Assembly: GCA_004028505.1 (NCBI GenBank)
Contig: MTKO01000041.1
Span: 1 to 64,000 of the forward strand
DNA length: 64,000 bases
Direction of reading: 5' to 3'
From: Candidatus Electrothrix aarhusensis
Lineage (GTDB): Bacteria > Desulfobacterota > Desulfobulbia > Desulfobulbales > Desulfobulbaceae
In this document: piece by piece, positions 38,034-42,161 of the stretch
How the letters are laid out: the number at the start of each line of letters is the position of its first letter
How positions within the stretch are numbered: the stretch's first letter is position 1
Made by a program: the position numbers and the translations under genes
The notes under the pieces: model-generated
Database searches by the model: none
The model's input: only the letters and a program-made list of their open reading frames with translations
What the model was told of the DNA's origin: nothing

Positions 38034-38474
38034 TCAGGAATTGATCGTGATCAGCGTGACCTGATAGACAATGGGCAGCCCGGCCAGCGGATGATTATAA
38101 TCCACCGTTATGTTGTCCTCATGCACCTCGGTGATTGTAGCTGGCACCTGATGCTGCTCTCCGTCTTTGTCTACAGCCAGGGAAAGAATCATTCCCGGTT
38201 TCGGATCAAGCTTCCCTTGAAAATGCGCCAAGGGAATCTGCTGGACCAACTCCTTCTGATGCAGGCCGTAAGCATCCTCGGGGTCCACTCTGATCACCCT
38301 TTTTTGCCCTGGCTCCATACCGAACAAACAGGCCTCAACAGCCCGGCACACAACTCCGCTGCCAATGGATACGGTAGCCGGATTCGTTTCATCTCTTTTG
38401 TCAATCAATTCTCCGGTTTCCAGAGAAGCCGTATAGGTAACGGTAACGGTGTCGGTTAAGGCGACAGGGCACAT
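38034..38474 (-). CDS. slyD: FKBP-type peptidyl-prolyl isomerase, SlyD-like
   Basis: 146 residues: DTVTVTYTASLETGELID, PATVSIGSG, EACLFGMEPGQKRVIRVDPEDAYG, then the insert-in-flap region and DYNHPLAGLPIVYQVTLI, the characteristic SlyD end (NHPLAG.L). It lacks the His-rich metal-binding tail of E. coli SlyD. It is a cytoplasmic chaperone and prolyl isomerase. Confidence 0.92.
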   Translation of the reverse strand: MCPVALTDTVTVTYTASLETGELIDKRDETNPATVSIGSGVVCRAVEACLFGMEPGQKRVIRVDPEDAYGLHQKELVQQIPLAHFQGKLDPKPGMILSLAVDKDGEQHQVPATITEVHEDNITVDYNHPLAGLPIVYQVTLITINS

Positions 38475-38709
38475 ATTTTTTCCTCAAATGAGCACCCGCT
38501 CAAACGCGGGAAACAAAGTTAACGTAATTTTGACTTTACTGCCCCCCTATATAATAAATTATACTGATTTGACAAGTCCGCTGAACAGGTCCGGTCACAG
38601 CACGCAAACGAAAGAACCTTGACAAAGGCGGCTCAGCGGCATAAATGTACTGTTTTTCGCGCTGAGTTTTTTTGAAAATATCAGAAAAATCCAGTTATGG
38701 AGCAACACA

Positions 38710-38880
38710 ATGGAACTTGAATGTGCAAAATACGGAGAAAAAATGCATGCAGAGCAAGCAACCTGTCGTCATCCGGGAGATTACTGCCAACACAGAACGT
38801 CCTGCATGATTCAATTCATTGAGCGGGAAAATAGAGGTAAAAAAACAAAAGCTGAAACAGAAAATGAAAAAAAAGATTGA
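38710..38880 (+). CDS. Small four-cysteine protein (56 aa)
   Basis: Starts MELECAKYGEKMHAEQATC and continues RHPGDYCQHRTSCMIQFIERE with a Lys/Glu tail. A GGAG ribosome site lies eight bases before the ATG. Four cysteines at about residues 5, 19, 26 and 32 follow the pattern C-x2-Y, C, GxYC, C-x4-F/I, closely resembling the 62-aa protein at 5854-6042 (C-x2-Y, C, GEC, C-x4-I). Probably a small zinc- or Fe-S-binding protein. The next gene (39021) lies on the same strand. It is too short for standard ORF cut-offs. Confidence 0.6.
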   Translation: MELECAKYGEKMHAEQATCRHPGDYCQHRTSCMIQFIERENRGKKTKAETENEKKD

Positions 38881-39020
38881 TGCGTTCTCAGCTTTTCGAC
38901 GGACAAAGCAAAAAAAACGATAGGCAGCAGTACGTGATGTGTCCATTATCAGGGCATGATAGGACAAATGAGTCCGTTATGACCCGCCAACATATACTTG
39001 TCCACGGGAAACGATATATT

Positions 39021-39824
39021 ATGGGTATCCTGATCAAAAAAACTCTGCACCCCCTTGTTCTTTTCTTATTCTGTACACTCTGTTTTTCTGCTGCTGAGGG
39101 GTTAGCAGCTAACAAGGAACTCCGTATCTCGGATGCAGCCTGTGATATTCAGTACGCAAGCCAGAGAATCGCTAAAACATATTTTTATAAAGAGCTTGAT
39201 ATACGATATGAAATCGCTGTTCAGCAGCTGAAAGAAGGCATTGCAGAGCTTGACAACAACATACCGGTACTGCAACAAGGTCTCCAGGGCAAGGAACAGG
39301 ATAATATCATGAAGTTTCTTCTTTCCTCCTATGATAAACTCAAAGCGATTCTGCCTAAACCTTACAGTAACGAAAACGGTGCAATGGTCATAGATGCCAG
39401 TGAATCACTGTTTGAAGCTGCCGAATTCCTTGCCGAAGCACATCTTCCGAAGGACAGAAACACCGTAGAAATCATGCTGGGTGATATTCAACGCCAGCTG
39501 CGCTTATTGGAGAGAATTAACAAATATTATATTGCTCATCACGCTGGCATTGAAAACGAAGATAACTTTATTCAGCTCAAGCAGTCTGTCTCTGGTTTTG
39601 AGGCAGGGATAAGTAAAATCACTGAACAGGAAAACCATCCAGAAGCATTAGACAAGCATGTTAACAGTATCAACAAACTCTGGCCGATTGCCAAAGATTT
39701 CTATCTAGGCATCCAAAGCCGAGCACAGCCTGTTATTGTTCTGGCAGCCACAGATAAGCTGATTGAAGAGCTAGTTGCCCTGGAAAAGCACTATAAAAAA
39801 GAGGCCTCACTTACTAAGAAGTAA
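39021..39824 (+). CDS. Exported helical protein, PilJ-N-like
   Basis: 267 residues. A signal peptide (PLVLFLFCTLCFSAAEGLAA) precedes an all-helical mature region. The segment ISDAACDIQYASQRIAKTYFY resembles the type IV pilus methyl-accepting (PilJ) N-terminal sensory domain, whose signature is AGRQRMLSQRIAK, and a second similar helical set follows around residue 150. There is no second membrane segment or output domain, so it may be a free periplasmic binding protein. Only 46 bases separate it from the next secreted gene, so the two may be co-transcribed. Confidence 0.65.
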   Translation: MGILIKKTLHPLVLFLFCTLCFSAAEGLAANKELRISDAACDIQYASQRIAKTYFYKELDIRYEIAVQQLKEGIAELDNNIPVLQQGLQGKEQDNIMKFLLSSYDKLKAILPKPYSNENGAMVIDASESLFEAAEFLAEAHLPKDRNTVEIMLGDIQRQLRLLERINKYYIAHHAGIENEDNFIQLKQSVSGFEAGISKITEQENHPEALDKHVNSINKLWPIAKDFYLGIQSRAQPVIVLAATDKLIEELVALEKHYKKEASLTKK

Positions 39825-39870
39825 GTGAGTGCCCATGACCCTCCGAAAAATAATACTGAGGAAAATCGTG

Positions 39871-40773
39871 ATGAAAAAGGCAGGGCAAGTATTTTCTCTT
39901 GCAGTTATTCTCCTGATGACCTTTTGGGTAACCGGGGCATTTTCTTGAGGACCCAAGCGCATCGCGGTCAGCGATGTCGGCTTTTCAACACCTGAGTCTG
40001 TCGAATATTATGCAAATGAAGATGTCTATCTGGTGAGCAATATCAACGGCAACTCGGCTGAAGCTGACGGTAACGGATTTATTTCTAAGCTCAGGCAGAA
40101 CGGCAATGTTATTGCACTCAAGTGGCTTGACGGCAGCAAGGACGATGTGACGCTCAATGCGCCGAAAGGGATGGCTATTGCGGGTACTGATACGGGCAAG
40201 TATCTGTTTATCGCGGATCTTAATCAGGTACAGGTTTTTGCCCTGCCCGGCGGCGAACAGAAGGCATCCATTGACATCAAAGGCAGTACCTTTCTGAATG
40301 GCATGACACCCGGCCCGGACGGCTCAGTCTATGTGATCGACACCGGCTTTGCCGGAGGCATGGAGCCATCCGGCACCGATGCAGTGTATCAGGTCTGGGC
40401 TGACGGCAAATACAAGGTTATTCTTCAGGATAAGGATATGGGGCATCCCAACGGTATTTGGTATGATAACGGCCAACTTATTGTGAACACCTTGGGCTCA
40501 GGGGAGCTGTTCAGCATTGATTCTGCCGGACAACGAACTGCTCTGCCGACACCACCCGCTGGCGGCCTAGATGGTCTAGTCAAGTTGAAAGACGGGCGGC
40601 TGATTGTGTCAAGTTGGGCAGGTTCTGCGATTTATGCGCTGGGTAAGAATGGGAAATTCACCGTGCTGGCGAATAAGTTGGTTTCTCCGGCGGATCTTGG
40701 TGTGGACACCAAACGGCATCGCTTACTGGTGCCGTTGTTTAAGGAAAACAAAGTGGTTATTTTGCCTTATTGA
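39871..40773 (+). CDS. Exported SMP-30/NHL-like beta-propeller protein with in-frame TGA
   Basis: 300 codons. The ATG at 39871 opens a signal peptide (LAVILLMTFWVTGAFS), followed directly by an in-frame TGA at 39946-39948 and then, in the same frame, GPKRIAVSDVGFSTPESVEYYANEDVYLVSNINGN, the usual opening of SMP-30-like propellers. The remainder (LNGMTPGPDGSVYVIDTG, GHPNGIWYDNGQLIVN, GGLDGLVKLKDGRLIVSSW) is intact to 40773. The TGA could be selenocysteine, since a SECIS-like hairpin starts 11 bases downstream, or a point error or mutation. If the signal peptide is cut after AFS, residue 26 would be the mature N-terminus. The next downstream start, a GTG at 40033, would lose export. Confidence 0.75.
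39959..39977 (+). promoter_or_regulatory. SECIS-like hairpin downstream of the in-frame TGA
   Basis: GCATCGC (39959-39965) pairs with GCGATGT (39971-39977) through seven pairs including one G-U, closing the loop GGTCA. It starts after a 10-base gap from the TGA. Bacterial SECIS elements, such as E. coli fdhF, have about this spacing and a GGUC-type apical loop. The fit is good by eye but such short hairpins can arise by chance. Confidence 0.5.
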
Positions 40774-40823: not shown

Positions 40824-41693
40824 ATGGACTTCTTAGATGTAAAAACCGACTTCGCCTTCAAGCGAGTCTTTGGCAGCGAGCAGTCCAAGGAAATCCTCAT
40901 CGATTTCCTCAACGCGGTCATTGACTTCGAGGATGCCGGAATTACGGACCTCACTATTGTTGATCCGTACCAAGTACCTTTACTCAAAGGCATGAAAGAC
41001 AGCTATGTTGATGTCAAGGCCGTCCTCTCGGATCATCGTAAGGTGATCATTGAGATGCAGGTGCTCAATGTGGAGGGCTTTGAAAAACGTGTGCTGTATA
41101 ATGCGGCCAAACTGTATTCCAATCAGCTGAAGAAATCAGAAAAGTATGCGACTCTGGAACCAGTCATCGCCCTGACCATTACTGATTTCGAGATGTTTCC
41201 TGAATTCGACCGGGTGATTTCCTACTGGAACCTGCGGGAAAAAGAGAGCTTTGTTCAATACAGCGGTGATATTGAACTCATTTTTATAGAGCTGCCTAAA
41301 TTTACTAAGAACGAGAAAGAACTGTGCTCGGTGACGGATAAATGGATTTATTTTATCAAAAATGCAGGTGAACTTGATTTTGTCCCGAAAACATTTTCCG
41401 AGCCGAACCTGCTTGATGCCTTTGATCTGGCGAACACCGCCGGAATGAACGAAGACGAGCTTGAAGTACAGTTTAAACGCCGTGATTTTATCTGGCTACA
41501 GAAAGGTTCGCTGGAAAAAGCACGAAAAGACGGGGTACAGGAAGGGATACAGGAAGGACTGGAGAAAGGAAAACGGGAAGCAAAGCTCTCTATCGCCCGA
41601 AACCTGCTGGCACAGAATATTGCTCCTGAAATTATTGCCTCTAGCACAGGATTATCCAAGGAACTCATTATCCGCCTAAGAGATCAAGAATAA
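40824..41693 (+). CDS. Rpn-family recombination-promoting nuclease / PD-(D/E)XK transposase-like protein
   Basis: 289 residues: MDFLDVKTDFAFKRVFGSEQ, ILIDFLNAVI, then the nuclease core DSYVDVKAVLSDHRKVIIEMQV (D...ExQ) and YNAAKLYSNQLKKSEKY. These match the PDDEXK_2 (PF12784) family. A charged helical segment GVQEGIQEGLEKGKREA and a final small helical domain (GLSKELIIRL) are typical. Rpn proteins are nucleases that stimulate RecA-independent recombination. It is usually multicopy in genomes. Flanked by unrelated genes. Confidence 0.87.
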   Translation: MDFLDVKTDFAFKRVFGSEQSKEILIDFLNAVIDFEDAGITDLTIVDPYQVPLLKGMKDSYVDVKAVLSDHRKVIIEMQVLNVEGFEKRVLYNAAKLYSNQLKKSEKYATLEPVIALTITDFEMFPEFDRVISYWNLREKESFVQYSGDIELIFIELPKFTKNEKELCSVTDKWIYFIKNAGELDFVPKTFSEPNLLDAFDLANTAGMNEDELEVQFKRRDFIWLQKGSLEKARKDGVQEGIQEGLEKGKREAKLSIARNLLAQNIAPEIIASSTGLSKELIIRLRDQE

Positions 41694-41784
41694 AACCGGT
41701 TGCCGAATGCAACTGACCTCTTTCAGAAGTTTTTGCTGAGCAGCAAACAGACTCGTTATTATTTCAATCACAATCTACAAAAAA

Positions 41785-42161
41785 ATGCCTGAACTCAATT
41801 TCACAAAATCAAAAGACGGTCTCCTGCCCGCCATCGCGCAGGACGCAGCCAGCGGCGACGTCCTCATGCTGGCCTACATCAACGAAGAATCCTGGCAAAA
41901 AACCCTGGAAACCGGCAAGGCCCATTACTGGAGCCGTTCCCGCAATAAACTCTGGCTCAAAGGCGAATCCTCCGGTCATGTCCAGATAGTCAAAGAGATC
42001 CTGGTGGATTGCGACCAAGACACCGTGATTTTCAAGGTGGAGCAACTGGGCGGCGCAGCCTGCCATAAAGCTATGCCAGCTGTTTCTTTCGCCGGGTGAA
42101 GGGCGATGAACTAGAGATCATCGCTGAGCCGGTTTTTGATCCGGCCAAGGTGTATGGATGA
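41785..42161 (+). CDS. hisI: Phosphoribosyl-AMP cyclohydrolase HisI (frame broken once)
   Basis: Third step of histidine synthesis. Visible: [60 protein letters not shown] with zinc-binding cysteines. The first frame ends at 42099 in unrelated residues. The next frame continues [17 protein letters not shown] and reaches TGA at 42159-42161. One missing G at about 42070 (HKG) restores a 125-residue monofunctional HisI. It is followed by hisG 67 bases downstream. Confidence 0.92.

Follow-up and report, generated by a model that had tools for sequence, protein, structure and literature searches.

Bacterial selenoproteins such as FdhA and SelD are marked by an in-frame TGA, by a hairpin of the selenocysteine insertion sequence (SECIS) type downstream of it, and by a machinery for the insertion of selenocysteine (Sec). 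According to the rules given in a 2026 selenoprotein catalogue (PMC13188914), such a hairpin has a loop of 3–9 nt with G in the first two loop positions, a stem of 4–16 bp, a spacing of 16–37 nt, and a minimum free energy of at most −7.5. The gene described here lies on the forward strand of a 64,000-nt stretch of DNA from Candidatus Electrothrix aarhusensis (assembly GCA_004028505.1, contig MTKO01000041.1, positions 1 to 64,000; hereafter the window). It shares the first two of these traits with FdhA and SelD and, as far as tRNA-Sec, SelA, and SelD are concerned, the third, and differs from them in that its Sec would be situated outside a redox or metal active-site motif, at the cleavage site of a signal peptide. 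It also departs from the usual selenoproteins in the lack of Cys in its close homologues, and is otherwise an ordinary SECIS gene.

By far the best account of this locus, and one which the sequence makes highly likely, is that of a real selenoprotein gene coding for an exported β-propeller with Sec at codon 26, because the TGA is conserved, the frame after the TGA is under selection, a SECIS-type hairpin follows, and the genome encodes tRNA-Sec, SelA, and a SelD with a TGA of its own. Very probably, the propeller constitutes a new family of selenoproteins.

The reading frame and its conservation

39871–40773, forward strand: candidate selenoprotein gene, 300 residues with Sec as position 26 (frame from direct reading and homology)
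39858–39862, forward strand: Shine-Dalgarno-like GAGGA, 8 nt 5′ of the ATG (direct reading)
39871–39945, forward strand: signal peptide MKKAGQVFSLAVILLMTFWVTGAFS, its AFS being a site of the signal-peptidase-I type (direct reading; homologues match)
39946–39948, forward strand: in-frame TGA, proposed Sec codon, the same codon being TGA in the ortholog of a second genome; position +1 of the mature protein if cleavage follows AFS

The open reading frame (ORF) at 39871–40773 consists of MKKAGQVFSLAVILLMTFWVTGAFS, the TGA, and GPKRIAVSDVGF...VVILPY, and is terminated by a second TGA at 40771–40773. The TGA at 39946–39948 is its sole interruption, and 274 residues lie between it and the stop. As homology spans the whole propeller, the frame 3′ of the internal TGA is confirmed as coding. 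Thus, the arrangement proposed in an earlier, sequence-only reading of this DNA (a signal peptide, an in-frame TGA at 39946, and an open frame thereafter) was recovered both from the ORF and from homology.

The organism's genus is represented by a second genome (G060), which contains an ortholog with TGA at the identical codon, placed between a signal peptide ending in TNAFA and GPKFIAVSDVGF, and with the propeller intact 3′ of it; the GAGGAAAAT stretch holding GAGGA is also found 5′ of the ortholog's start. The two loci are collinear, the blocks corresponding to 38034–38857, 39937–40771, and 41758–42157 of the window following one another in G060 as they do in the window, interspersed with other genes. 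The proteins are 72% identical, and the aligned genes have diverged to ∼1.25 synonymous substitutions per site (dS) and ∼0.16 nonsynonymous ones (dN; dN/dS ∼0.13), with 57 of 104 four-fold sites identical. For the 28 codons from the TGA to the first downstream in-frame GTG, dN was 0.16, the same as in the rest of the gene, and dS was 0.82 (versus 1.32), which indicates that the codons immediately downstream of the TGA are maintained for the protein they encode. It is this conservation in the ortholog which places the TGA beyond chance; the hairpin alone would be suggestive but no proof.

The hairpin and the selenocysteine machinery

39959–39977, forward strand: bacterial SECIS-type hairpin with a 7-bp stem and a GGUCA loop, −10.0 kcal/mol (by the rules in PMC13188914)
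39945–39988, forward strand: longer predicted fold with the TGA in its lower stem, −16.1 kcal/mol, z −2.0

The hairpin is composed of GCATCGC (39959–39965), the loop GGTCA (39966–39970), and GCGATGT (39971–39977); it begins 10 nt downstream of the TGA, from which its loop is 17 nt away. The hairpin lies within all of the published limits (loop of 5 nt, stem of 7 bp, GG, spacing of 17 nt, −10.0), and direct reading together with these rules bore out what had been noticed from the letters alone, namely, a hairpin of 7 bp and with GGTCA as its loop, ten bases past the TGA and of a size and distance befitting a SECIS element. In the G060 ortholog, the stem has 6 bp, one C-G pair being changed to U-G and the outermost pair lost; the core AUCGC-GGUCA-GCGAU and the 17-nt spacing are identical to those of the window. 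All five codons of the hairpin core are the same in both genes, for which a likelihood of ∼5% would be expected at the background rate by our own arithmetic.

How often such a structure arises was assessed with ungapped stems only. When both strands of the window are counted, a SECIS-rule hairpin at least as stable follows 29 of 2548 TGA triplets (1.1%) and, for comparison, 17 of 1676 TAA and 11 of 839 TAG triplets. When the peptide was held constant and codons were drawn at random according to the codon usage of the window, 74 of 20000 synonymous recodings folded as well as the window sequence (0.37%), and 889 of 20000 as well as that of G060 (4.4%). Ranked together with 38 distinct homologue stretches (L016 and 37 without TGA, one of which, L054, was mis-anchored), the window and the other TGA-bearing sequence took the first and second places; the best stretch lacking TGA reached −5.3 kcal/mol versus −6.4 (G060) and −10.0 (window), and none of the 37 was as good. 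An Rfam scan of 39600–40400 returned two chance matches and none to a SECIS family.

The genome from which the window stems (G000) contains tRNA-Sec (74.8 bits versus a cut-off of 47 bits; anticodon TCA according to ARAGORN), SelA (630.8 bits), and SelD with one in-frame TGA (342.8 bits), so that the expectation of selA, selB, selC, and selD genes, voiced with the first description of the TGA, held for selC, selA, and selD. A second match to SelD, devoid of TGA, is located on contig C19. SelD contained one in-frame TGA in all four genomes of the genus that were searched (L090, L091, L092, and L093), each followed by a SECIS-rule hairpin whose stem has 8 bp and whose 4-nt loop (GAUC or GCUC; GGAUCU or GGCUCU when the closing G-U pair is left open) lies at 21 nt. 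The SelD gene of the genus is, thus, probably a selenoprotein gene itself, and bacteria of this genus very probably decode UGA as Sec in SelD too. In G060, SelB, SelA, a TGA-bearing SelD, and tRNA-Sec with a TCA anticodon were all found.

The propeller family and the position of the residue

39949–40770, forward strand: mature propeller without Cys, predicted with a mean pLDDT (predicted local distance difference test) of 91.2

The predicted structure, modeled from five sequences, comprises 24 strands and is a propeller, six-bladed judging from its fold matches. Its closest solved relative is Cj1041c of Campylobacter jejuni (PDB 22gu, 22gv, 22gw, and 22gx, of which 22gu and 22gv are Ca2+ complexes), which was both the best sequence match (58 bits) and the best fold match (template modeling score 0.77–0.84), albeit with only 26–28% identity in the Foldseek alignments. 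Behind Cj1041c ranked designed Pizza propellers and NHL domains, ahead of DFPase and gluconolactonase XC5397; the latter two, among the 50 listed matches, link the fold to the SMP-30/gluconolactonase/DFPase superfamily. The label "SMP-30-like" of the sequence-only reading is, thus, appropriate for the fold and not for the sequence: the match to SMP-30/SGL (PF08450) scored 20.3 bits, below the Pfam gathering cut-off of 26.3, and the closest protein of solved structure is Cj1041c. From NCBIfam, the only match was to ScyD/ScyE and sub-threshold (34.6 versus 80 bits). The motifs PES, PNGI, and LDG are invariant across the homologues; we take them to resemble the metal ligands of SMP-30.

In homologues, too, a signal peptide occupies the place of the one at 39871–39945. 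Signal peptidase I favors small residues at positions −3 and −1, and cleavage is likely at AFS-U in the window and at AFA-U in G060, which would make Sec the mature N-terminus; the cut may also lie two residues earlier. The four residues at the beginning of the mature protein, Sec being the first, have pLDDT values under 50, and Sec probably sits on a flexible tail in the model. The residue following the signal peptide varies across homologues, as had been cautioned at the outset. No Cys is present in the mature protein of the window, and 29 of 40 homologue rows lack Cys altogether in the part that starts 25 residues upstream of the PES motif. Altogether, 40 loci entered this comparison of N-termini, with L052 a repeat of L011 and L078 one of L059; L059 and L078 lie side by side in a genome of the Thiomicrorhabdus order (G289) in which the propeller gene occurs twice, and a single reading stands for both.

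In the mechanism that we infer from these sequences, SelB, presumed to be present in the strain, and Sec-tRNA would decode the UGA at codon 26, helped by the hairpin just downstream, to yield an exported β-propeller selenoprotein of the periplasm or the cell surface. Signal peptidase I would cut at AFS-U and leave Sec as a flexible N-terminal residue, whose selenol and free amine might act between molecules, by binding metal or by linking up with a second surface protein through redox chemistry. As there is no partner Cys and the predicted tail is of low confidence, an intermolecular role is, in light of the model, the most likely one, rather than catalysis by the propeller. The more specific proposition that the exported protein has a free N-terminal Sec, that is, a surface selenol, and that this Sec arose by recoding a variable position instead of replacing Cys, appears evenly balanced to us.

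A homologue is present in 8 of 257 genomes of the organism's own order, its own included (the class-level search covered the same 257 genomes), and in 26 of 62 genomes of the order to which the Thiomicrorhabdus homologue belongs, where 31 matches were listed, one without a locus. A pattern scan of genome contigs yielded four relatives. The window's family, with four rows in the tree, is a single clade there and stands next to eight rows of the Thiomicrorhabdus type. The nearest homologues devoid of TGA are those of Electronema (G057; AFA-DKIEQ) and Thiomicrorhabdus (G257), in whose genomes neither tRNA-Sec nor SelA was found. No homologue was found on plasmids, and viral contigs contained one distant homologue without TGA (L046).

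In a further genome of the genus (G059; L017 and L035), only the C-terminal half of the gene persists; the end of an upstream 290-residue gene runs into the propeller at residue ∼134, and the region of the TGA codon is deleted. On the 5′ side of the propeller gene in the window, 38952–39824 codes for a probably exported protein of unassigned family which is 79% identical in G059; it had no match in the 18.8-kb stretch of G060 around the propeller gene, its Pfam matches were all below the cut-off, and it had none in NCBIfam. The 3′ neighbor, at 40824–41693 of the window, is a gene for a transposase of the PD-(D/E)XK family (171 bits).

Weighing the accounts of the UGA

Several observations weigh against a selenoprotein. 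The TGA-bearing sequences known here number only two and belong to a single genus, and within this genus the gene is whole in 2 of 8 genomes, a fragment in G059, and without a match in 5 of 8 (one of which is only 69% complete), so that it is dispensable. tRNA-Sec is present in 5 of 7 other homologue-bearing genomes searched, yet in these five, whose homologues are distant, the propeller gene contains no TGA. By our own reading of the N-termini, Cys is absent from the Sec column in all close homologues, whereas the deep-Sep paper is said to have Cys homologues for every one of its 12 new selenoprotein genes. Homologues lacking both Cys and Sec in this column had been named beforehand as a finding that would speak against Sec; one ortholog has TGA and no other close homologue has either, which, taken alone, is contrary. 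As to the RNA, the G060 hairpin by itself reaches −6.4, weaker than the −7.5 of the rules, a value that is attained only by the whole fold (−12.9); its 5-nt loop, 6 bp, GG, and 17 nt lie within the remaining limits. Folding z-scores are modest (−2.04 for the window and −1.75 for G060, with 5 and 11 of 200 shuffles, respectively, being as good), and codons close to the TGA are not clearly more conserved at the synonymous level than the others (10 of 15 identical versus 97 of 175 elsewhere).

Finally, a search did not find SelB in the draft genome of the organism itself. Of the 9 genomes searched, a set without the Thiomicrorhabdus genome, 6 had SelB above the cut-off, including G060. In G060, sequence at a distance of 2.3 kb from selB aligns with contig C125 of the draft up to the very end of this contig (bases 22–946), and the matched end of C125 adjoins selD at 1106–2035; the flank of the selB region is split over two contigs of the draft (C73 and C125), and synteny is imperfect. 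It is, therefore, likely but unproven that selB is missing from the draft through an assembly gap at the end of C125.

Among the other accounts of the UGA, two are variants of the selenoprotein reading, so that their probabilities overlap with it. In the first, the UGA would act as a gate limiting the exported protein to the supply of selenium, the residue itself being unimportant. Tolerance of many residues at this position in homologues, the close ones among which have no Cys, is consistent with such a gate, but the regulation would be costly, and no such case is met in the table of the catalogue (PMC13188914); we regard it as unlikely.

More doubtful is the second variant, in which Sec replaces the Cys of a lipobox and anchors a lipidated protein. 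A lipobox Cys follows the signal peptide in at least 3 of 40 homologue loci (L013, L043, and L045), and the window sequence, when Cys is put in place of Sec, fits the loose PROSITE lipoprotein pattern. It fails the strict pattern, however, and G060 fits neither; moreover, AFS and AFA suit signal peptidase I, and Electronema has AFA-D. The lipoprotein reading is, thus, unsupported in G060, a strict lipobox being absent from both sequences. The three distant homologues with a lipobox Cys suggest that anchoring may differ between species, some members of the family being anchored and others free.

Slightly less probable again is that the UGA is read by a near-cognate tRNA, for example, that for Trp, so that no Sec is inserted and the hairpin either merely aids readthrough or occurs by chance. 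Close homologues without Cys and a variable position at which any residue would serve are in line with this notion. However, TGG would do better and is one substitution away, yet both genomes keep TGA; tRNA-Sec, SelA, and a TGA-bearing SelD are present; the SECIS-type hairpin is correctly spaced; and the nearest homologues lacking TGA are in genomes where no tRNA-Sec or SelA was found.

It is very improbable that the locus gives rise to two products, a 25-residue peptide ended by the TGA and a propeller restarted downstream. An in-frame GTG does exist at 40033, and ATC at 39961 and CTG at 40030 are non-standard candidates, but no ATG, GTG, or TTG lies between the TGA and this GTG, the residues in between are conserved and part of the family, and a restarted propeller would lose the export signal that homologues have.

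Scarcely credible, and rejected, are a sequencing or assembly error, a doubt already raised by the sequence-only reading, and the decay of the gene with a nonsense mutation of recent origin, for even though the draft is fragmented (143 contigs, ∼90% complete) and G059 holds but a C-terminal fragment, G060 has the same TGA at a dS of ∼1.25 and a dN/dS of ∼0.13 (unless both assemblies share the error).

Searches of a limited set of papers revealed none on selenoproteins in cable bacteria or on Sec in Electrothrix, none on a bacterial SMP-30 selenoprotein with UGA, and none on Sec at a lipobox; nor was a case of Sec as the N-terminal residue of a mature protein met among the papers listed, judging from titles and the beginnings of abstracts. 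In the 2026 catalogue, the table of 119 families and subfamilies has no propeller entry of this kind, and "propeller," "SMP-30," and "gluconolactonase" are absent from its main text (PMC13188914). The gene would, therefore, add a propeller family to the selenoproteins catalogued there.

Selenoproteins are usually recognized by the exchange of Cys and Sec in redox sites. Here, Sec would stand where a signal peptide ends, at a position that is variable and free of Cys, and yet be kept over large divergence, which would mean either a job for Sec that is, as far as we saw, undescribed, or a selenium-dependent gate for expression. If the selenoprotein reading with a free N-terminus is true, a surface selenol beside a free amine would provide the protein with a metal-binding or cross-linking N-terminus.
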